Of a stretch of 23,266 nucleotides of DNA, positions 6,639-23,266 are shown in pieces (the first letter of the stretch is position 1; the number at the start of each line of letters is the position of its first letter). The notes below the pieces were generated by a model. It saw only the letters and a program-made list of their open reading frames with translations. It was not told the DNA's origin and made no database searches. The DNA comes from a virus. Position numbers and translations under genes: made by a program. The stretch spans positions 1-23,266 of the IMG/VR virus record IMGVR_UViG_3300023196_000478; one strand, given 5' to 3'.

Positions 6639-6710
6639 AGACCTATAGTTAAATGGATATAACAAAACTCTCCTAAAGTTTAGTTGCAGGTTCGACTCCT
6701 GCTAGGTCTA
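6639..6710 (+). tRNA. tRNA-Arg (anticodon CCT)
   Basis: A complete cloverleaf folds by eye. Acceptor stem AGACCTA (6639-6645) pairs perfectly with TAGGTCT (6703-6709). D-stem GTTA/TAAC encloses AATGGATA. Anticodon stem AAACT/AGTTT encloses CTCCTAA, giving anticodon CCT at 6672-6674 after the invariant T33. The variable region is AGTT, and T-stem GCAGG/CCTGC encloses TTCGACT. The discriminator is A6710 and no CCA is encoded. It reads AGG, a codon used in neighbouring phage genes (for example at least three times in phoH). Phage tRNAs of this kind usually supplement codons rare in the host. Confidence 0.93.
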
Positions 6711-6730
6711 CTAACATAAATTAAAATAAC

Positions 6731-12458: not shown

Positions 12459-12880
12459 ATCTTACTTTTTTTTAAAAACATATTAACATTAAACCCCTCT
12501 GAATCATATCCAGAAACATTACTATATCCCAAGACCTCAAGTCCTGGATGTCTTAGGGTCATATACTTTATATAAACCTTTAAGCTTTCAGACTGGTTTT
12601 CGTTCAGGGTGTTGTTTGTAAAACCATTAACAACCCCACCAACGTAAGCTACATGTCTAGATTTTCCCCTCAGTCTTTCGTAATCTTCTTTGTATATCCA
12701 GTTGTCTATCCTCTTTGGATTGTATTCTATTGCAGAGTGTATTGTTCCATCAAGCTTTATTACATCTTGAAAAGAGCATATCATTAAGTCTTCATCTCCC
12801 TTGTGAGATAAGGCAATAGATTCTACACCTAGGTCTATATCACACTCTGTTAGTGTTGAATGTATTATTAAAGATTCCAT
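12455..12880 (-). CDS. Amidase_2-like protein with apparent loss of zinc ligands
   Basis: 141 residues. The sequence follows the N-acetylmuramoyl-L-alanine amidase (Amidase_2/PGRP) layout of Bacteroidota phages: LIIHST with His7 at the position of the first zinc His, DVIKLDGTIHSAIEYN, SRHVAYVGGVVNG, a TLNENQ...L helix, then HPGLEVLGYSNVSG and GFNVNMFL. Active members read 'vlGHrDls' and 'CPCFdv' in the last two blocks; here Tyr119 replaces the second zinc His and Ser127/Glu128 replace the zinc Cys region. Catalysis is thus doubtful and the protein may only bind peptidoglycan or use another chemistry. The start overlaps DUF5675 by 13 bases. Confidence 0.55.
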   Translation of the reverse strand: MESLIIHSTLTECDIDLGVESIALSHKGDEDLMICSFQDVIKLDGTIHSAIEYNPKRIDNWIYKEDYERLRGKSRHVAYVGGVVNGFTNNTLNENQSESLKVYIKYMTLRHPGLEVLGYSNVSGYDSEGFNVNMFLKKSKI

Positions 12881-13332
12881 TCTATATCTTCGTATGTTAT
12901 CATCACAAACTCTCCAAGCTCTATCGCATCAGCAATCTTTGGGTATATTCTTTTATACGCTTGTACAGAGCTTCCCACAAACCCATCTCTTGCGACAATG
13001 TTGTTTGTCTGTGTGTCTCCAACGACCAAGCACCCACTAGTATGTTCATCAGTGTTCCCAGTATGGATAAGAATATACTCAAAGCCAGGAACATTAGTGA
13101 TATGAAGCATACCACGATGTAGGTTGCCATACTTTTTAGAATACTTATTATGAAAGCCACCTTCTTTTCTAAATTTAATTTCATATGTTCCTTCTGGTAT
13201 TCTGGTTTCGTGCATAACCTTTACGTCTCTCTTCTCGTCTTCAAGAGTGTAGCATGCAAACTCACCATTAATAAATAGAAGACCATTGGTACAGTCCTCT
13301 CTATTACTGAATCTTAAAACCTTTATGTTCAT
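12868..13332 (-). CDS. DUF5675 family protein, probable lysis/peptidoglycan enzyme
   Basis: 154 residues. The DUF5675 pattern is clear: FACYTLEDEKRD, RIPEGTYEIKFRKEGGFHNK, MLHITNVPGFEYILIHTGN and HTSGCLVVGDT. The I-H-x-G-N...S-G-C layout resembles the His/Cys active site of L,D-transpeptidase-like folds, so peptidoglycan cleavage or modification is likely but unproven. There is no signal peptide; a holin encoded three small genes upstream could release it. It begins three bases after the 21-residue basic peptide and overlaps the amidase-like gene by 13 bases, in a lysis cassette. Confidence 0.75.
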   Translation of the reverse strand: MNIKVLRFSNREDCTNGLLFINGEFACYTLEDEKRDVKVMHETRIPEGTYEIKFRKEGGFHNKYSKKYGNLHRGMLHITNVPGFEYILIHTGNTDEHTSGCLVVGDTQTNNIVARDGFVGSSVQAYKRIYPKIADAIELGEFVMITYEDIEWNL

Positions 13333-13405: not shown

Positions 13406-13534
13406 TTATTTTTTCTTGATTATTGTTTTTGTTTTCCCATTGGTTGTTCTAGCATAAATCTTATCCTTGGTTTCCCTTATGAATGTGCCAGTGTATTTTT
13501 TACCACCATATGTCCAGCTTACTTTCTTTGCCAT
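13406..13534 (-). CDS. 42-residue basic mini-protein
   Basis: ATG at 13534 forms a TAATG overlap with the holin stop (13532-13536). The product begins MAKKVSWTYGGKKYTG and ends TIIKKK: a small, basic, beta-rich peptide (WTYGGKKYTGTFIRE) with no cysteines. It could be an SH3-like or nucleic-acid-binding mini-protein, but no family is recognised. The exact coupling to the holin supports it being translated. Confidence 0.6.
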   Translation of the reverse strand: MAKKVSWTYGGKKYTGTFIRETKDKIYARTTNGKTKTIIKKK

Positions 13535-13944
13535 TATTTTTTTTCTTTACTAGAACTTCCTCCAAAGAAGAAGTCTATTATTGTATTTACTTTTGCACTC
13601 ATTGCTCCAAAGATAGTCGAAATAAAACTAATTTCAAACTCTCCTAAGTCAATTATGCCATTAACGAAATGTTGAAACATCACAAAACTGATACCAAAAT
13701 AAGCTACTGTAAATAAAGTAGCGAGTATCTTTTGAATTATAGCATCGTCTTTGTATAAGTCTCTTGCATCTTTCCTGTCTTCTACTTCCTTATTAAAAGC
13801 TTCTTTCTCTGCGTCAAGTAAAACCTTGCGTAGTTGTAGTTTAGCCTCATCTCTTTCTTTGTCAGTAGTAATTACCTTGTCAAGAATACCCTCAGCGTTA
13901 TCTACTACCTTACCAAGTATCCCTCCTAATATATTATTTAGCAT
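13534..13944 (-). CDS. 3TM holin (GTA/HP1-type)
   Basis: 136 residues. It matches the 'holin of 3TMs' layout: an amphipathic N-terminus (LNNILGGILGKVVDNAEGIL), a charged helical segment (TDKERDEAKLQLRKVLLDAE), EVEDRKDARDLYKDD, then hydrophobic helices at about 72-93 and 105-125, and a Ser/Lys tail (FFFGGSSSKEKK). Such holins permeabilise the inner membrane to end infection. It overlaps the upstream unknown gene by 11 bases and the 42-residue gene by TAATG. Placed just before the peptidoglycan genes, it marks the lysis cassette. Confidence 0.82.
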   Translation of the reverse strand: MLNNILGGILGKVVDNAEGILDKVITTDKERDEAKLQLRKVLLDAEKEAFNKEVEDRKDARDLYKDDAIIQKILATLFTVAYFGISFVMFQHFVNGIIDLGEFEISFISTIFGAMSAKVNTIIDFFFGGSSSKEKK

Positions 13945-14197: not shown

Positions 14198-14370
14198 GAC
14201 CCACAGTTTTCGCAATCTTCTTGATTTTCTATGTTACAACTAGGCTGCTCTTGCTCCTCAAGTTCATCGAGCCAATTATCAAATCCTGCCCTAGATTTAA
14301 GTATGCAAACGCAATTTTCTGCTTCACAATTAGGTTTACCACAATGTATTTGTTTTTTATCCTCGCTCAT
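14194..14370 (-). CDS. 58-residue Cys-rich protein
   Basis: ATG 14370-14368 overlaps the T9SS-protein stop as TAATG, and its TGA (14194-14196) overlaps the next ATG as ATGA, so the frame is locked on both sides. It has seven Cys: HCGKPNCEAENCVC at the N-terminus and QEDCENCGS at the end, joined by an acidic helix with FDNWLDELEEQEQ. The paired Cys (and His9) could form a zinc site or, less likely without a signal peptide, disulfides. No family recognised. It might be a metal-binding or regulatory partner of the secreted-protein cassette (inference). Confidence 0.65.
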   Translation of the reverse strand: MSEDKKQIHCGKPNCEAENCVCILKSRAGFDNWLDELEEQEQPSCNIENQEDCENCGS

Positions 14371-16328
14371 TATTGTATAATTATTTTTGTTGTTATACTC
14401 ATTTCATCTTTAGATATGGTAACTAAATAGATACCCTTATCTAATTCTATATCTAAAACTTTATCTTCATGATAAACAATCCTACCCAATCCATCGTAAA
14501 CCTTTACGTCAACCAAAGATTTAAAACTAATTAAACCATTCGATGGGTTTGGATAAGGCAACATGCCCATTCTTTCGAAAATAGTTATGTCAGTAGGACC
14601 AGTCCAACCATCTTCGCAATATGTATATAGCCCTTCACATCCATCATCCCATGTAGTATTGCAGCAATATGGGTCTACCTGGATAACCCAGCTAAAACAT
14701 TCATTAGGAATATAGTATACATCGCCAACACTACAACCAGCAGAGTAATAGCAACTACTGTCTGCCATGTTAGCTTCGACATTATAATTAATAGCAGTCG
14801 CATCTGTGCAGCCAGACAAAGGATAAACACAAGACCCATTATTAGAGTTTGCGTTATCATTGTAATTAATTGCTGTGCTATCTGTACATCCATAGTTAAA
14901 AGGAACGCAACTACCATTATCTGTATTTGCTGAGGAGTTATAATTAAACATTGTGTTATCTGTACATCCAAAAATTACTGGCAAACAATTACCATCATCT
15001 ACGTTTGCATCAGCATTAAAGTTAAATGATTCTGGGTCAGTACATCCTAAGACTGGAAGCAAACAAGAACCATCATCTACATTCGCTAGTGAGTCAAAGT
15101 TAAGTGCCTCGCTAATCATGCACCCTTCTACAACAGCTATGCAGGTGTCTGCTACGTTTGCATTAGGATTGTAATTAAATGCCAATTCATTCATACATCC
15201 CAAAACCACATCAACACAAGAGCCATCTAACTCTGTGTTTGCTTCAGGATTATAATTCAAGGCTGTAGAATCCATGCAGCCAAGAACGATTAGTGTAGCA
15301 CAAGTTTCGTTATCAAAGTCAGCATCTGCGTTATACTCAATGTAGATTGGATTCGTACATCCTTCAACGTAATAACAACTTTCGTCATCTGTGTTAGCAC
15401 CATCATTATAATTTAAAGCTGTATCATCAATACAACCATATATTTTTTCTATGCAACTATTACCACAATATGGTATGCCTAAGTTTATTGCAAAAGGAAT
15501 TAAAGGATTTGCAAAACCTCCAGGTTCGCTTATAGTTAAGTGTTCTTCTGAATACAAACTATAACCACATTGTACAGATGTAAATTGTGATTGTTGTGTA
15601 GTATTAAATTTTATTTCTACAGGTTCTGATATACTTAAATCAAAAGTAAATGTAGTATCAAAGCCATCTTCTAAAGTAAATATACCTAAAAAGTTATTGC
15701 CTTGAAATACCTGTAGAAAAGCTCCAGCCCAACCATTACCAGCTAGGTCTGTTAACTCTAAAGTGTAAGAGCAGCTATCTACTAATATGTTTGTGTTAGC
15801 TAGGCTATCGTAATTAAAAGCATCCCCCTCTGTACAGCCAAACACTTTGTCAGTAAAGCACATCCCTGTATCTACTGTTGCTGTTGGTAAAAACTCTACA
15901 AAGTTATTGTTCATGCAACCATATATAGGTGGTGGCAGGGGGCAGTCTTCTACTGTAAATCCATGGTATGTGTACGTGCCAAAGTTAGCTGAATCCATTT
16001 CAACTATAGTATCATTACATCTTATTAAGTAGTATGAACCATCTTGCCCTCCCCATAAACTACCTTGCATACCATCTCCATAGGTATCGTATATGTCAAA
16101 GTAGTAGTCACCATTAGGAACACAAAGCTGTGTTACCTGAGGCGAATAATCTATTATATCAGTATAAGGTCCCCCTGTAACTATAGTGTCTCCATAAGCA
16201 TTAGTAATAGCCCAAGATGTTTCTTGTGGGTATTGGTCAGGATTAATAACTATGTCTACGTAAGTTCCATTAGGACATTGTGCAAACGCTATGTTAATTA
16301 ATAATACTAGTGTAAATAAATACTTCAT
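14370..16328 (-). CDS. T9SS type A-sorted secreted protein with 11 Cys-paired repeats
   Basis: 652 residues. A Sec signal peptide (MKYLFTLVLLINIAFA) is followed by Gln17, obeying the Bacteroidetes Q-rule. Residues about 17-134 resemble a beta-rich domain common in Bacteroidota secreted proteins (YPQETSWAITNAYGDT, YDTYGDGMQG). Two repeats follow, then a related beta domain (LTDLAGNGWAGAFLQV, about 182-295), then nine more repeats (about 295-530) of the type GC.D..A.NYN..AN.D.GSC, each with a Cys pair. The end (from LPYPNPSNG to TTKIIIQ) is a T9SS type A C-terminal sorting domain: YPNP..G, VKVYDGLGR.V and L..GIYLV. The host T9SS should export it and possibly anchor it at the cell surface. The start is TAATG-coupled to the thioredoxin-like gene. 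Confidence 0.85.
   Translation of the reverse strand: MKYLFTLVLLINIAFAQCPNGTYVDIVINPDQYPQETSWAITNAYGDTIVTGGPYTDIIDYSPQVTQLCVPNGDYYFDIYDTYGDGMQGSLWGGQDGSYYLIRCNDTIVEMDSANFGTYTYHGFTVEDCPLPPPIYGCMNNNFVEFLPTATVDTGMCFTDKVFGCTEGDAFNYDSLANTNILVDSCSYTLELTDLAGNGWAGAFLQVFQGNNFLGIFTLEDGFDTTFTFDLSISEPVEIKFNTTQQSQFTSVQCGYSLYSEEHLTISEPGGFANPLIPFAINLGIPYCGNSCIEKIYGCIDDTALNYNDGANTDDESCYYVEGCTNPIYIEYNADADFDNETCATLIVLGCMDSTALNYNPEANTELDGSCVDVVLGCMNELAFNYNPNANVADTCIAVVEGCMISEALNFDSLANVDDGSCLLPVLGCTDPESFNFNADANVDDGNCLPVIFGCTDNTMFNYNSSANTDNGSCVPFNYGCTDSTAINYNDNANSNNGSCVYPLSGCTDATAINYNVEANMADSSCYYSAGCSVGDVYYIPNECFSWVIQVDPYCCNTTWDDGCEGLYTYCEDGWTGPTDITIFERMGMLPYPNPSNGLISFKSLVDVKVYDGLGRIVYHEDKVLDIELDKGIYLVTISKDEMSITTKIIIQ
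14740..15445 (-). repeat. Nine-unit degenerate tandem repeat within the T9SS-protein gene
   Basis: Nine consecutive units of roughly 23-27 codons encode GC-[TMI]-[DN]-x2-[AFY]-x-x-[NE]-[YF]-N-x2-A-[ND]-x-x-[DN]-x-[SNT]-C. Two further units lie near 15790-15940, separated by a beta domain. Units have diverged in DNA sequence but keep both cysteines, suggesting old duplications under structural constraint. Boundaries are approximate. Confidence 0.7.
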
Positions 16329-16651
16329 TAGAATTTGCTTATTATTAATTCGTCAATATATTCTTGTACTTCTTTTCTTGTAGCAACCATTTTAAAACTT
16401 ATGTCTGCTTGAAATCTTTTTACTTCTTCACCATCATCAAACACAATTATTGTAGGGACAATAGCTATTTTGTATTTAGTTTGATTATCGTTTTGCTCTA
16501 TCAAAAGTGTTTGTCTATCACATTCCTTTAATTTTGAGAACCAAACTACATCATTAGCTGAATTAAATCCAGCGTTAAAATGCTTTATTTCTATCTGCCC
16601 AAAAGAAAATTGATAGGTAAACAAAATAAATATTATTGTCCAGAGCCTCAT
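16328..16651 (-). CDS. Secreted thioredoxin-fold protein lacking CXXC
   Basis: 107 residues. The signal peptide (MRLWTIIFILFTYQFSFG) is followed by Gln19, again the Q-rule. The mature part has a thioredoxin-like layout: a first strand (IEIKHFNAGF), a helix region with a single Cys44, IEQNDNQTKYKIAIVPTIIV with the cis-Pro66 motif, FDDGEEVKRFQA as the last hairpin, and a C-terminal helix. The CXXC redox motif is missing, so it is unlikely to be an ordinary oxidoreductase; it may be a chaperone-like or binding thioredoxin fold. It is TAATG-coupled to genes on both sides and lies just upstream of the Cys-repeat secreted protein, possibly its folding partner (inference). Confidence 0.65.
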   Translation of the reverse strand: MRLWTIIFILFTYQFSFGQIEIKHFNAGFNSANDVVWFSKLKECDRQTLLIEQNDNQTKYKIAIVPTIIVFDDGEEVKRFQADISFKMVATRKEVQEYIDELIISKF

Positions 16652-16926
16652 TATCTTAACGCATCAATTTTGTTCTCCATTCGAATCATTCGCTCTTCTA
16701 ACTTTTCCACATTTTTCTCTGTGTTCTTAATAGACTGACGTATATTAACATCTTTCATATTAAACTCCATCTTAGAAATTTCTGGTTTAGGAAGTTCTTT
16801 TGCCTCAGCTATATCAGCTTGTAGTGTAAACCACATACCTATTAAGGTTGCCATTGCAAAGCCTATACCTATTAATGTTTTTACACTTATGTTGAACCCT
16901 GTTTCTTCGTTTAGTTCTTTTGCCAT
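16651..16926 (-). CDS. Single-TM protein with C-terminal coiled coil
   Basis: 91 residues. A polar N-terminus (MAKELNEETGFN) is followed by a membrane helix at about 13-34 (VKTLIGIGFAMATLIGMWF), a linker (AEAKELPKPEIS) and a heptad-like coiled coil to the end (NIRQSIKNTEKNVEKLEERM). The topology is probably N-in with the coiled coil in the periplasm. That is the layout of inner-membrane spanins, but no outer lipoprotein partner is evident beside it, so a virion- or envelope-associated linker is equally possible. It starts five bases after the stop of the beta-barrel-like gene and is TAATG-coupled to the thioredoxin-like gene. Confidence 0.6.
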   Translation of the reverse strand: MAKELNEETGFNISVKTLIGIGFAMATLIGMWFTLQADIAEAKELPKPEISKMEFNMKDVNIRQSIKNTEKNVEKLEERMIRMENKIDALR

Positions 16927-16931
16927 TTTTT

Positions 16932-17966
16932 TTAAAAAATTACATAGTTGATTCCAAACTTGAAATCATACCATTCTTTGTTCCAGTATTTATTATACTT
17001 ACCCTCAGCAAATATACCAAGGTGTTTGTTTATTTTATATCCAAAGATTAACCCCCCTGAGTAATCTAACCATTGTTTACCTTCGTACTTGTGATATGAA
17101 TATTCACCCCCACCATCATAATGATAAGGCATTAAGTTACCCCAAGAGTGTAACCAGAAGTTTTTCTTATAATGATAGAAATCAAATCCTACCACTAAAG
17201 AGTGTTGCCATTGATTATCTAACGCATTCTTTTTCCTTTCAACATAATCTTTCAGAACCTGTGGCATAACCACCTCGTTCCATACTGTAGCGTTGTTAGC
17301 AACAATACCTCCCTCTGGGTCTCTGTATTCTGAATTGTAAACATCTATACTGTATCCCTCCTCAATAGCTAAACATGTGTAGTGTATTTCTCCTGAGGCT
17401 ATTAACCAGTCTTCTAAAGGGTCATAACCATAAGGTTCTGCTAATCTTTGTACAGCACCAAAGTTAAATGATAACTTTTTACCTGCCTTTAATCTAAACC
17501 TTTGTGTTGACTCAAAGTATTTTATATCAGCAAACCCTTCTTTAACATACTCAGCTTTTGTAAACCACAAATCTTTAACATAACGCAAGAAGTGATGCTG
17601 GTCTAAATACTCAACCCCCTCCTGTCTCCTGTAGTCTATCTCAAATAAATACTCAAATGGATTTCTCCCTATGTTTGCTGCGTCAGAGAAAGAATTTTCT
17701 GTACCATCCTTAAATTGTGATGTCCCCTCATACTGAAACCTCTGTATCTTTCTTATCCCCATTGATAATGAATAATCATATGGAGTTATTATGGTGTCAT
17801 ACATAAGCTTACTTCCATCAAGAGAATACACATCTTGATTAGCTAATGAAGTTCCACCATTTGCTGCCACATAGAATGTAGAGAACTTTAAAACTTTCTT
17901 TAGTTGTGCGTCTGCTGTATTTGCAAAAGACGCTAAAAATAAAAATATAAAAATCTTTAGTGGCAT
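16932..17966 (-). CDS. Outer-membrane beta-barrel-like secreted protein
   Basis: 344 residues from ATG 17966; an upstream TTG at 17972 would add two residues but ATG is preferred. The signal peptide (MPLKIFIFLFLASFANTADA) is followed by Gln, the third Q-rule protein here. The mature part is rich in Tyr/Trp/Phe with alternating strands (SLVVGFDFYHYKKNFWLHSW, GGLIFGYKINKHLGIFAEGK), and the end, YDFKFGINYVIF, terminates in Phe like substrates of the outer-membrane BAM complex. It therefore probably forms a barrel or sits in the outer membrane. Nothing ties it to a known porin or T9SS component. It opens the coupled secreted-protein cassette, 11 bases after the large polyvalent protein. Confidence 0.6.
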   Translation of the reverse strand: MPLKIFIFLFLASFANTADAQLKKVLKFSTFYVAANGGTSLANQDVYSLDGSKLMYDTIITPYDYSLSMGIRKIQRFQYEGTSQFKDGTENSFSDAANIGRNPFEYLFEIDYRRQEGVEYLDQHHFLRYVKDLWFTKAEYVKEGFADIKYFESTQRFRLKAGKKLSFNFGAVQRLAEPYGYDPLEDWLIASGEIHYTCLAIEEGYSIDVYNSEYRDPEGGIVANNATVWNEVVMPQVLKDYVERKKNALDNQWQHSLVVGFDFYHYKKNFWLHSWGNLMPYHYDGGGEYSYHKYEGKQWLDYSGGLIFGYKINKHLGIFAEGKYNKYWNKEWYDFKFGINYVIF

Positions 17967-17977
17967 ATGCAAATATA

Positions 17978-20900
17978 CTATTTTAATTCTTTTTTAACAA
18001 CTTTTCTCATATCATAATCCCAGATATAATCTCCTGTAGATAATAGTTTAATTGCATCCCCTTGTATGTCATTAATTAAATACTTTCTAAATATAGATTT
18101 TATCTCAGAACCATTAACAATTCCTACGCTTGCTCCAACCAATAAGTTATTAGCAATAGTTTGAAGTTCAGACTGATTAATAGGTCTATGAGAAGGCATT
18201 AATGGAAACGCCTCTCCTATATACATAGAGATTTGATTTTTCTTACCAATGTAAATATCCTTTTCTGCTGGCATCTTAGTCATCTTTAACGCCCTCTTAG
18301 GATTCATTCCTAGAGTCTCAAGGTTTTTCCTGTGGTTGTAAAGTGTTTCAAAAGTTTCTTGAAGCTTAGTGTTTGCTTTTTGCAAAGCACTTTCTTTATC
18401 AGAATTACTAACGTCATCTTTGTTTGCCACATCAAAGTATAACCTAGAGTTAAGCTTTGAATCATCAACAGCATCTTGAACCCTAAAGTAATATTGTTTC
18501 TCAGAGTTTAATTCTGATACCCTTACCCCTGCAAATGTAGAAACAAATTCTTTAGTGAAATCTTTATCTGGGTCAGTCATTTTCATGAAAGACTTTATTG
18601 TTCCTGGAGTCAACACCTTAGCTATATGAACAAACCCTTTAGAGGCTATAGAGCCTGCATCGTCAGTTGCGTTGTATATAGGGTTTCCATATCCATCTTT
18701 GTTAGCATTAACCTCTGCGATTGCTTGAGTCACTGGCTCTACACCCAAGTATGGACTGAACGACTCTCTTAAAAACTCATTAAGAGAATCTTCAGCGTAA
18801 CCTTTTCCAGTAAATATATATGATAATGTTTTGCCAGATTTTTTAATGTGAGCAAATGGGTCTAAAGAACTAAAGTCAAAGTAGTAAACACTACCATCTT
18901 CGTACTGAACAGGAACTAAGTCAGAGTTTCTAGACCAAGGTGCAACCTCGCTTTGTAGTGCTTCAGTTTTTTCATCATCCCAGTCTGGTAAAAGATTCTT
19001 TACCATTGACGCAATCAGTGTTGCAAAACCAGAGGCTCCAAGTAATCCAACGCCTCTTCTTATTCCCATCTTCTTAATATCATCATTACTAGACATAACC
19101 ATCTTTGGAGTGTCTTCAATGTGATTGATTGTATTCCTCATCATTTCAGTCACAAACGAAGGGAATGTACCAACCAGTGGAAACTTTCTAATTTCTTTAA
19201 TTGCATGAGGTATCTTACTGTAGGTAGGCATGTGTCTTATAACATCGTTTGCTGACATTTCATCTAACTGTTCTTCAGTAGCATTAGGGTAAGCCTTAGT
19301 ATATTGCTCTCTAAGATTGTAGTATACAAATACCTTCCAGTAATCATCCTCTGCTTGGTATGCTTTTTGTGCTATATTAGAAGCTCCCTGTACAATCAAC
19401 TTAGCCTTGTTGGTAGCTAGCTTTGTCGTGGGAACATCTTCTCCCATTGTATCGCTTATGATTGCCTTAACCTCTCCTGAGTAAGCCCCATCTTTTATTA
19501 CGCCAAGCTGTATAAGTTTTTTAATTTCTAATTCATTCCACTTGCCATTTGTTTTAAGCTTTCCAAACATGTAAGAATGTGAGGATGGATTTAGTGGGTT
19601 AATCCCTAGTGCAGTAACAACCAATGTATTAGACATGAAGTTTCTGATGTGTGTTTGTACACTCAATATAGTAGCCCCATACTTAAACATATAGTTTGCA
19701 GTCATTAAAGATTGCATTAATAATCCATTCTGATTAATGTCAGTTGTAAACATCCTAAGAACCTCAGCAAATTCAGGAGTAGTGTATAAGGCTAGTCCAT
19801 GAGTTAGTGGATAGTATTGACTAAACTTAGAAGTATCGTCTTTAGTAATTCTTTTAGGGAATTTTTTACTATCATATTTATCAGACAAAAACCCCTCGTT
19901 AAAACCAATCTCTCTAAGACTAGATAGTAGCTTGGTTTGCTCTATTATGTGTATAAGCTTAGAAGATGTTTTAAAGAAGTTAGACACAGGGTCTTTAGAC
20001 TCTCCCATTACCTCCCTCATCCAAGATGGTATATCTTTTCTTTGCTTTAGAGACTTAACATCTCTCTTAATTAAATCTCTAGACATAAAGAAAGATAGTG
20101 GATTGTTACCAACACCCTTCATTTCTGCAAACAACTCGTTTAAAATTTCAGTAGCCTGCTCCACTGAGAGCTCTTGACCTATCTCACTATAAGACTCTTT
20201 TAGTTTGTAAACAGCATTGTTCCAAACCTCAGGAGCAACTTCATAGTGTGGGTTTTCAAATACCTCGTATGTTCTGTTTACATACACCCCAATGTTTTTA
20301 GATACAATAGCCTCTAAGTCTCCCTGAATCATACCCTCATCTATCATGTGTTGAGACAAAGCATCTATGTAGTCTCTCATTTCAACAATAACTTTTTGGA
20401 TGTTATTAGGTAGTAGTTCTACAAGTTCGTAAGTTCCTGTCAATGATGAGTTTATAGAACTCAGAGTTTCTTTAGTTAAATCTTTGCCATACTCTTTCTC
20501 TACTGCAACCTGAAAGTTTTCTACAATCATTTCAACATCATACATTTTAGCCTTCGTCTCATTCTGTTTTGTGATACTAGCATCGTATGTTGCCTTAGTC
20601 ATCAAGCCTTTAGTTGTAAAGTTCTTCTTAAACTGTAGTTTAGCATTGGTTCCATTAAAGCTAAAGAAACCATTATCCTGTATTCTTATGTTGTCTGTGT
20701 GTATTTCTAAGGCAGGAAGCTTAGACTCTTTACTCCTTAAAGATATAGCCCCCAATACTGCACCATTTTTTGTGTACCCACCTAACTTTTTATTTCTTTC
20801 TGCGATGTCTCCCTCAAAGTATTGTTCGCCTTGAGATGTTAGTGTGTAGTTCATTAACCCTGCAATGTTAACTCCTGCCTCTGAATTAATACCTAAGAAC

Positions 20901-23266
20901 TCTCCATTAATTGTAATAGGGTATCCTGGATGAATTTTTTCTCCCCTTGGATTTTGAGAGTCTATTCTACCAACACTCATTATAGTTCCCCTTGGTACTT
21001 TAGTTAAATCATTATTTGTATTCTCAGATTTTAGTGGCATAGACTTTTCTAAAGTCAACTCTAACATCTTAGGTATGTTTGGAAAACCTTTAAATTCTCC
21101 ACTGTCAAATTTAGCATTAGGATTTTTAACTGCCAATACTCCTACTGCACCCATAGCATCCATAAAGTCTCTACGAACATCGTAAGTACCACTTGTTATA
21201 AGAACATCTCTAAGTTCCTCTAATGAGTTAATGTTGTTGCCATGTATTTTAGGAAATCTTTTCTTTCCTGTTTTTGTTGTTGAGTTAATCTTTTCGTTTA
21301 TAAATGCAAACGCCTCATTAATTGTTAACTCTTCTCTTTGAAAAGATTCTTCTAGCTCAAGAATATATAGATTAGAAAACTCTTGGTTACCCCTGTGAGA
21401 TATTGGACCTTGAGAAACAATGACCATGTACATGTCTTTTGTTTTATATGCCATGTTCATAAAACTAGAAAACGAAGCCTCTGTTGTTGATGCCCATAGA
21501 GCATTCTTATCTTTAAACTTATTTCCAAATAGTGGACCACCATTAATATTCACTCGTATATTAGAGCCATCCCTGTATCCAGTGTAAACACCAGTACCCA
21601 TTAAGTCTCCTGGAACAACCAACACTAATTTATTCTCTAATTCTTGCAGATTAAATATTGGTAAACCACCAAACTTAGATTCTTTTGGTTTCTTGTATCC
21701 AACCCTTTCAAAGTAACCCTGAGGAATTTCAGTAAGACCAAATGGTTGTCCTTGTTGAAGTTCATCTAGCAAATCTAATTTAGATTGCTTAGGCTCTTTT
21801 GATTGGAAGTCAATATCTTCAACAGATATAGTAGGTATAAATTCGCTTGGCAGTCTTCCACTACCAAATTCAAAGTAGTCTTTAGAAAAGTCAGTGCTCA
21901 TGAAACCAGTCATAGGATTAAAGTTTTCAATACCAGTTAACTCATATTTGTTTTTATCAAAGAACCATCTTGGAACTGACACCCTAACCTTATCTCCTAC
22001 CTCTTGAATCGTTGTTATAGAGTTTGGTAAGTAGTTAAACTTATAACTTTTTTCTTTGCTTCTACTTCCAGAATACTTAACAGCTTTTCCTGATGCAGTT
22101 TCTCCATGAAGTCTGTCAGAACTTATCTCAAACATAACAGGATTGTTTTTAATCTTGTCGTACTTTTCTTTGTACTCTTGTTCTGCTTTTGCCCAAAGTT
22201 CTTTTTGTATTTGGAACTTGTCAGAAGATTCCTGCATCTGTCTTAGCAAGTCATACTTAGAGGTTATCTGCTCTGATGAAAGATTCTTATCGCTACCATA
22301 CTGTTGTTTCCATCCAGACATTTTAGAAAACTTAATTTTCTTTCCTGTCTTTTTTTCTTCAGCCTCAAACGCTTCATCTTGTGGAGTAGTCTTTACTGCG
22401 TTCTTAGCGTAAACTAGCCCACCTATTTGAATTACTTCATCAGCATGTAGTAAAGGCATACCATCAGCCCTATCGTAGAAGTACGAGTGCCTAAAAGGAT
22501 TCATACCCACCTGAACCCAAGCTGGGTTTTTTACTATAGACTCAATAGTGTTCATAGCATTTGCTCCTTTTTCTTGAGAGGTAGCTCCCTCTATTGGAGA
22601 CCACTCACCCTGCATCCTGGCAATGGTAGCCTTACCCATTCTTCTTCCCCCTGGCTTTAACTCTGCGTGTCTAGCTATGTTTATAGCAACAACAGGATTA
22701 GAGGTGAAGTCTACATTTTTTATTCTAGCTACATTGTTATATGATAGTGGGGAACCACTTGTTCCTCCCTCATGAACTGTAATAGCCCATATATTACTAT
22801 TAGTATATGCAGGTATATCAAGCCTTAAACCAACAGACTTACCCTCTTCAAATTCTAAATTTATTTTTCCCTCTGACTTTACACCAACAGCAGTAGCTAT
22901 ATCTTCAGCTTTTGCTGGCTCAATAAATCCTATGATTGGTTTGATTGGACTGTATTGATTTACTGTAGCAAGATATTCCTCTTGTGTAATCTCTTCGTTG
23001 TAGTATGCTTCAGCAGCATCTCTAACAATATTATTTCTTTCTGTTATAGCTCTGTCTCCCCTCCCTATCATTGATGGTGACCATTGAAGCTTTGATTCTT
23101 TAACATTAAGTTTTTCAGTAAACAAAGAGGATTCTACAAATATTATGCTTTTTTCTTGAACGTCTTCTGTCATGTCTAACAAGGCGTTTCTCCTCTGCTC
23201 TTCTGTAAGGTTCAATCTTCTTTCTACATTTCTAGATTCAACCTCACCATAATTTGAATAATAAGC
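17978..23266 (-). CDS. Large polyvalent protein, 5' end outside the window
   Basis: The frame is open from the right edge through 1762 residues; a TTG at 23213-23215 is not a convincing start because the preceding 17 codons read into GEVESRNVERRLN, a segment typical of these proteins. About 170 residues further on is NPFRHSYFYDRADGMPLLHA followed by DEVIQIGGLVYAKN, a block recurring in phage polyvalent proteins. The last 550 residues (YGATILSVQTHIRNFMSNTL, EDDYWKVFVYYNLREQY, FDFSSLDPFAHIKKSGK) resemble LPD38-type domains (recognised from memory). Such giant multidomain proteins are thought to be packaged and injected with the genome to counter host functions. It ends 11 bases before the beta-barrel-like gene. 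Confidence 0.7.
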   Translation of the reverse strand, partial: AYYSNYGEVESRNVERRLNLTEEQRRNALLDMTEDVQEKSIIFVESSLFTEKLNVKESKLQWSPSMIGRGDRAITERNNIVRDAAEAYYNEEITQEEYLATVNQYSPIKPIIGFIEPAKAEDIATAVGVKSEGKINLEFEEGKSVGLRLDIPAYTNSNIWAITVHEGGTSGSPLSYNNVARIKNVDFTSNPVVAINIARHAELKPGGRRMGKATIARMQGEWSPIEGATSQEKGANAMNTIESIVKNPAWVQVGMNPFRHSYFYDRADGMPLLHADEVIQIGGLVYAKNAVKTTPQDEAFEAEEKKTGKKIKFSKMSGWKQQYGSDKNLSSEQITSKYDLLRQMQESSDKFQIQKELWAKAEQEYKEKYDKIKNNPVMFEISSDRLHGETASGKAVKYSGSRSKEKSYKFNYLPNSITTIQEVGDKVRVSVPRWFFDKNKYELTGIENFNPMTGFMSTDFSKDYFEFGSGRLPSEFIPTISVEDIDFQSKEPKQSKLDLLDELQQGQPFGLTEIPQGYFERVGYKKPKESKFGGLPIFNLQELENKLVLVVPGDLMGTGVYTGYRDGSNIRVNINGGPLFGNKFKDKNALWASTTEASFSSFMNMAYKTKDMYMVIVSQGPISHRGNQEFSNLYILELEESFQREELTINEAFAFINEKINSTTKTGKKRFPKIHGNNINSLEELRDVLITSGTYDVRRDFMDAMGAVGVLAVKNPNAKFDSGEFKGFPNIPKMLELTLEKSMPLKSENTNNDLTKVPRGTIMSVGRIDSQNPRGEKIHPGYPITINGEFLGINSEAGVNIAGLMNYTLTSQGEQYFEGDIAERNKKLGGYTKNGAVLGAISLRSKESKLPALEIHTDNIRIQDNGFFSFNGTNAKLQFKKNFTTKGLMTKATYDASITKQNETKAKMYDVEMIVENFQVAVEKEYGKDLTKETLSSINSSLTGTYELVELLPNNIQKVIVEMRDYIDALSQHMIDEGMIQGDLEAIVSKNIGVYVNRTYEVFENPHYEVAPEVWNNAVYKLKESYSEIGQELSVEQATEILNELFAEMKGVGNNPLSFFMSRDLIKRDVKSLKQRKDIPSWMREVMGESKDPVSNFFKTSSKLIHIIEQTKLLSSLREIGFNEGFLSDKYDSKKFPKRITKDDTSKFSQYYPLTHGLALYTTPEFAEVLRMFTTDINQNGLLMQSLMTANYMFKYGATILSVQTHIRNFMSNTLVVTALGINPLNPSSHSYMFGKLKTNGKWNELEIKKLIQLGVIKDGAYSGEVKAIISDTMGEDVPTTKLATNKAKLIVQGASNIAQKAYQAEDDYWKVFVYYNLREQYTKAYPNATEEQLDEMSANDVIRHMPTYSKIPHAIKEIRKFPLVGTFPSFVTEMMRNTINHIEDTPKMVMSSNDDIKKMGIRRGVGLLGASGFATLIASMVKNLLPDWDDEKTEALQSEVAPWSRNSDLVPVQYEDGSVYYFDFSSLDPFAHIKKSGKTLSYIFTGKGYAEDSLNEFLRESFSPYLGVEPVTQAIAEVNANKDGYGNPIYNATDDAGSIASKGFVHIAKVLTPGTIKSFMKMTDPDKDFTKEFVSTFAGVRVSELNSEKQYYFRVQDAVDDSKLNSRLYFDVANKDDVSNSDKESALQKANTKLQETFETLYNHRKNLETLGMNPKRALKMTKMPAEKDIYIGKKNQISMYIGEAFPLMPSHRPINQSELQTIANNLLVGASVGIVNGSEIKSIFRKYLINDIQGDAIKLLSTGDYIWDYDMRKVVKKELK

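Follow-up and report, generated by a model that had tools for sequence, protein, structure and literature searches.

Cargo of the type IX secretion system (T9SS) is known to use barrels of the outer membrane. Type B cargo needs a cognate PorP/SprF barrel, which is often encoded nearby and which binds, and may anchor, the cargo (PMC9143113, PMC12618676). Type A cargo uses PorV (PMC12618676). In phages, T9SS type A cargo has been reported for Cryophage as a unique occurrence, and the authors of that study suggest a role in exclusion or competition (PMC7468147).

We analyzed a 23,266-base IMG/VR virus record (the window) that encodes a predicted outer-membrane beta-barrel together with a coiled-coil protein (COIL), a thioredoxin-like protein (TRX), and a T9SS type A cargo. 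The barrel resembles PorP/SprF (PF11751, TIGR03519) in being an outer-membrane barrel of about 310-350 aa beside a T9SS cargo gene. PorP/SprF has been proposed to hold cargo at the surface, and we propose the same for the phage barrel. Unlike PorP/SprF, the phage barrel is found in phages only, accompanies type A rather than type B cargo, and has TRX-like and COIL partners. Type A cargo is also linked to an outer-membrane barrel in the case of PorV (NF033709), but PorV is cellular and general, whereas the phage barrel accompanies a single cargo gene. Cryophage likewise encodes proteins that have a T9SS type A sorting domain and would rely on the host machinery; its cargoes are variable (endoglucanase, GH39, PA14), and the accessible part of the report describes no barrel, thioredoxin, or coiled-coil partner (PMC7468147).

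Homology searches placed the barrel in neither cellular family. For PorP/SprF there was no Pfam match, TIGR03519 matched 1 of 51 members at E 0.23, and hhalign gave 36% over 53 columns, compared to 100% for the positive control. For PorV, the search with NF033709 found no member and the hhalign probability was 0.7%. As controls, PF11751 found members in 29 of 30 bacterial genomes and NF033709 did so in 29 of 30 genomes. Phage remodeling of the host surface is a known kind of phenomenon. The conserved four-gene cassette is apparently new, and a literature search of incomplete coverage found no description of a barrel-cargo-thioredoxin-coil cassette.

A phage family of predicted outer-membrane barrels

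The barrel gene and the elements within it are:

16932..17966 (-): outer-membrane beta-barrel, 344 aa, predicted from the modeled structure and fold matches; ATG at 17966, stop at 16932
17907..17966 (-): signal peptide, residues 1-20, read by eye from the N-terminus
17214..17438 (-): L4, the long folded loop that joins strands 7 and 8 (residues 177-251), from the AlphaFold model and conservation
16935..16964 (-): C-terminal FKFGINYVIF, the last beta-strand, from the translation and the model

The barrel gene is real and is under strong purifying selection. The median dN/dS was 0.069 and the maximum 0.148 over 444 pairs of homologues. The N-terminus is hydrophobic and reads MPLKIFIFLFLASFANTADA^Q, ending A^Q by inspection, as expected of a Sec signal peptide. 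An N-terminal export signal is kept throughout the family and its type varies. In 45 of 179 barrel homologues (e.g., L040, L043, and L046) the plain signal peptide is replaced by a lipobox-like Cys and a twin-Cys start (SC[AV]APKKCCSQ). By analogy, these proteins may be lipidated barrels, for which TamL is a precedent (PMC12045153), or may carry a disulfide tether like that of SprF (PMC12635249).

Just 5' of the barrel ATG, at 17970-17977 on the minus strand, is TATATTTG, which fits the Bacteroidota -7 promoter motif, TAnnTTTG. Only 3 nt separate it from the start codon, and in AT-rich DNA it may be a chance match.

The protein is well supported, on the basis of structure prediction, as an outer-membrane beta-barrel, which is what the initial annotation had proposed. 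AlphaFold models made with 51 relatives (pLDDT 73.8) and with 106 relatives (pLDDT 80.8, pTM 0.69) both had a signal helix followed by 12 long antiparallel strands joined mostly by short turns. The predicted strands are amphipathic and, at 12 in each of the two models, even in number. In a Foldseek comparison to the PDB, the matches listed were membrane barrels: NanC was the best (E 1e-6 to 2e-5), and the others were porins, autotransporter barrels, Tsx, FapF, OmpG, Omp85 barrels, and mitochondrial barrels. A soluble beta-sandwich, the fold that the initial annotation had named as speaking against a barrel, was absent among the matches listed. TM-scores to the known PDB barrels were low to modest (0.3-0.4 by query), and therefore the barrel class is supported and a subfamily is not. 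NanC, a 12-strand porin, has the same strand number and fold class; it is about 10% identical, smaller, and has no L4 insertion. The alternation of polar and aromatic residues that had been noticed in the mature protein was borne out, in that the in-strand alternation of hydrophobicity exceeded that of within-strand shuffles (p = 0.004), a result that is supportive only since the strands were taken from the model.

Three long loops (L1, L4, and L5) are on the presumed extracellular side of the modeled barrel, and residues 74-103 form a long turn on the opposite side. From the strand count we infer that L4 is extracellular, provided that the N and C termini are periplasmic. The first part of L4 (residues 177-205; EPYGYDPLEDW...HYTCLAIEEGY) was as conserved as the strands, and a comparison of loops and strands among the relatives revealed no hypervariable loops.

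The terminal phenylalanine fits a barrel without proving it. The protein does end in FKFGINYVIF, exactly as first described, and the C-terminal residue of 106 non-redundant relatives was F in 79, L in 15, R in 8, I in 2, and Y in 2, compared to a background of 3.4% terminal F among 1,915 neighboring phage ORFs. However, F was also the last residue in 156 of 157 of the adjacent TRX proteins. Because TRX is no barrel, a terminal F is not diagnostic by itself. The terminal F that a BAM targeting signal would have is present here and in most relatives and is not specific; we consider it weak evidence and rejected it as decisive. Barrels with a C-terminal R make up one subclade (e.g., L046, L048, and L058), and L is found in others. 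Ten of 13 R-ending barrels were paired with a cargo whose tail has DxLGR in place of the PNP type A motif, a count that ignores kinship.

The barrel has many viral relatives and none that is convincing in the protein family databases. Pattern scans found relatives encoded by at least 585 IMG/VR stretches. The barrel in the window had no sequence match in Pfam, PHROG, or the PDB, nor did a profile of the alignment match the PDB, and the family as a whole has no convincing relative in Pfam, NCBIfam, PHROG, or the PDB. Weak hits of single members (phrog_28240, 0.0024; LPD16, 0.003; entericidin, 0.0019; and others) were scattered and inconsistent among family members, and were therefore taken as chance. 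Among cultured phage genomes, tblastn found no match at E 0.01. Three weaker hits (E up to 10) were in an apparent purD gene in human-gut contigs and were also taken as chance. The assertion in the initial annotation that phage-encoded barrels are rare is doubtful. BFVD matches include several phage proteins whose names denote porins or outer-membrane barrels (porin-like, OmpC, phiAS5), which share the barrel fold and are generic fold matches. The best BFVD match, A0A516LKJ4 (342 aa, TM 0.62, 21% identity), is possibly a distant barrel relative.

In bacterial genomes, matches were limited to five MAG contigs. When 395 genomes from the class to which one carrier MAG belongs were searched with a profile, the barrel was in none of the other 394, and in the carrier MAG it sits within the same four-gene cassette. 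We conclude from these searches that the barrel is a phage family.

A conserved four-gene cassette

The neighbors of the barrel gene, and a tRNA gene elsewhere in the window, are:

17978..23215 (-): upstream virion structural protein, 1745 aa; phrog_22602, 5.5e-41; TTG start as listed, frame open to the window end
16651..16926 (-): COIL, 91 aa, with a coiled-coil-like helix after a single transmembrane segment; its start lies 5 nt past the barrel stop
16328..16651 (-): TRX, 107 aa, exported protein with a thioredoxin fold that lacks CxxC; 1-nt overlap with the COIL stop
16553..16564 (-): NSAN where thioredoxins carry CGPC; two Asn invariant in the alignment, exact register ambiguous
14370..16328 (-): T9SS cargo, 652 aa, 35 Cys; 1-nt overlap with the TRX stop
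14751..15437 (-): cargo GC-x-D...NYN...ANxDDGSC repeats, residues 298-526
14373..14555 (-): cargo T9SS type A sorting domain, residues 592-652; PF18962 6e-8, TIGR04183 3.4e-9
13534..13944 (-): holin-like protein downstream of the cassette; phrog_3427 holin, 4.4e-4
12868..13332 (-): DUF5675 protein, possibly a peptidoglycan enzyme; PF18925 3.3e-32, Tlde1_dom 0.0013 (below cut-off)
6639-6711: tRNA-Arg (anticodon cct), early region

The barrel is almost always found with the same three genes. COIL, TRX, and cargo-cluster genes were present at 161, 158, and 158 of 179 distinct barrel loci, respectively, where the cargo-cluster counts include some large virion-like proteins; the next most frequent neighbor family was present at 76 of 179. 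When only loci with flanks of at least 5.5 kb on both sides were considered, all four genes were together, and the barrel thus linked genetically to a T9SS type A cargo, at 70 of 74. The reciprocal search starting from TRX gave the same picture, with the other three genes at 38 of 38 well-flanked loci. All of these loci are mostly relatives near enough for pattern scans, they are not independent samples, and the locus sets partly overlap. The order of the genes is mostly conserved cyclically (OCTS, SOCT, CTSO), and the median gaps between them are -4 to +3 nt. The contigs that carry the barrel are between a few kb and 171 kb long and differ in the surrounding genes. As judged from gene content and order, linkage that outlasts rearrangement points to a joint function.

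The cargo has the features of a T9SS type A substrate. It has a signal peptide and a C-terminal TIGR04183/PF18962 domain; TIGR04183 scored above cut-off in the protein in the window and was present in 31 of 40 cargo relatives. Its repeats have the form GCTDxxAxNYNxxANxDDGSC. The cargo cluster also holds large proteins without a signal peptide that are upstream, carry the same GCTD Cys repeats, and are probably virion proteins (L088:1358-5332, L050:799-5064, and L090:827-5293). Similar Cys repeats are present in a virion structural protein of cyanophage S-CAM3.

TRX has a thioredoxin fold and lacks the active site. The profile matched a PDB thioredoxin at E 4e-8, and PF00085 was recognized in 30 of 46 members, with the member in the window below cut-off. 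The alignment contained no CxxC in the TRX family; in its place the stretch reads W/F-N-x-x-N, with the Asn residues invariant and the register ambiguous. COIL is predicted to be an inner-membrane coiled-coil protein with about 55 residues outside the membrane.

The cassette is probably expressed late in infection. Holin- or endolysin-like families were near the cassette at 48 of 72 loci, and in the window the stop codon of the upstream virion gene is 11 nt before the barrel ATG. Late expression is what this setting leads us to infer. Relatives of the upstream protein are structural proteins detected by MS in Cellulophaga phage phi18:3. Its N-terminal part separately matches other phage proteins, which suggests from sequence comparison that the protein is a mosaic.

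The hosts are probably marine flavobacteria, or more broadly mostly marine Bacteroidota, based on the T9SS domain, the occurrence in MAGs, and the kinship of the virion protein to those of Cellulophaga phages.

Possible functions of the cassette

We think that the 12-strand barrel belongs to a near-obligate and probably late four-gene envelope cassette and works with the T9SS cargo as a surface-display module, a reading to which we assign a probability of roughly 0.4. The barrel would be exported by Sec and inserted into the outer membrane by the host BAM. The Cys-repeat cargo would also be exported by Sec and would then cross the outer membrane through the host T9SS by means of its type A C-terminal domain. 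The conserved L4 of the barrel may receive, hold, or position the cargo at the surface, as PorP/SprF does for type B cargo. TRX and the membrane-anchored COIL could be helpers on the periplasmic side, perhaps as a chaperone or tether of the Cys-rich cargo. The infected cell would thereby display a phage-made surface protein, most likely to bar competing phages or to change adhesion before lysis. We speak of a barrel that works like PorP/SprF rather than of a member because there was no homology to PorP/SprF or PorV and the cargo is type A. The cargo type also counts against the model, since as a rule it is type B cargo that has a dedicated barrel, and the phage encodes a type A cargo. We rejected co-divergence as evidence for contact between barrel and cargo: the Mantel r for this pair was 0.60, no higher than that with unrelated neighbors (0.52-0.79), and there is thus no special signal of co-evolution.

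Other functions would account for some of these observations. As the initial annotation suggested in pointing to exclusion factors that alter receptors, the barrel might be a stand-alone superinfection-exclusion protein that occupies or masks a phage receptor, with its neighbors merely other envelope genes, and its predicted location in the outer membrane and the suggestion made for the Cryophage cargo (PMC7468147) are consistent with this. We consider it unlikely, given the near-obligate linkage to three specific genes in both search directions and an L4 segment conserved like the strands, where a factor that faces changing receptors might be expected to vary. Also, there was no significant Pfam or PHROG match to known exclusion protein families, the closest being Cor (phrog_1119) with 2 of 51 members and a best E of 0.11. 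The conserved part of L4 and the near-inseparable cargo and envelope genes point instead to a partner protein that is fixed, although the cassette as a whole could still serve exclusion. A set for disrupting the outer membrane at lysis, in which the barrel and the inner-membrane COIL act like spanins, would fit the holin- and endolysin-like genes so often nearby, the frequent adjacency of COIL to the barrel, and the finding that no spanin was recognized when the late genes in the window were scanned against Pfam and PHROG. It would leave the almost constant T9SS cargo and thioredoxin fold unexplained, and only roughly 55 residues of COIL are outside the membrane. We know of no spanin that is a 12-strand barrel, and we view this explanation as rather improbable.

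Two further possibilities relate to the barrel alone. Small channels such as NanC and Tsx give the best fold matches, as would be expected of a porin for nutrients or small molecules that acts as an auxiliary gene and aids the infected cell. These matches (about 10% identity or less) are of the generic kind that a 12-strand barrel gives, and a porin would leave the cassette unexplained, making this role very improbable. The least probable of the functions considered is that of a virion protein, such as a tail or ejection component. The barrel gene does directly follow a virion structural gene in the window, but the cassette is beside different genes in other phages, and a signal peptide and membrane-barrel fold would be unexpected in virions that are assembled in the cytoplasm.

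The surface-display reading can be taken further, more tentatively. The virus-specific barrel might be a dedicated shuttle or anchor for phage T9SS cargo, unrelated to PorP/SprF and PorV and equipped with TRX and COIL helpers of its own, and so a widespread add-on to the host T9SS that repaints the infected cell. We regard this extended version as possible and somewhat doubtful.

Bacteroidota are major degraders of algal polysaccharide. The cassette suggests that phages rebuild the surface of the infected cell in a manner not yet described. If the surface-display model is true, uncultured phages of Bacteroidota that are abundant carry a compact module with which they turn the phylum-specific secretion system of their hosts to remaking the cell surface. 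The cassette would then offer a direct way into exclusion and adhesion in these phages and a test of which factors other than PorV a type A cargo requires, and its sequence would mark phages whose hosts have a T9SS.
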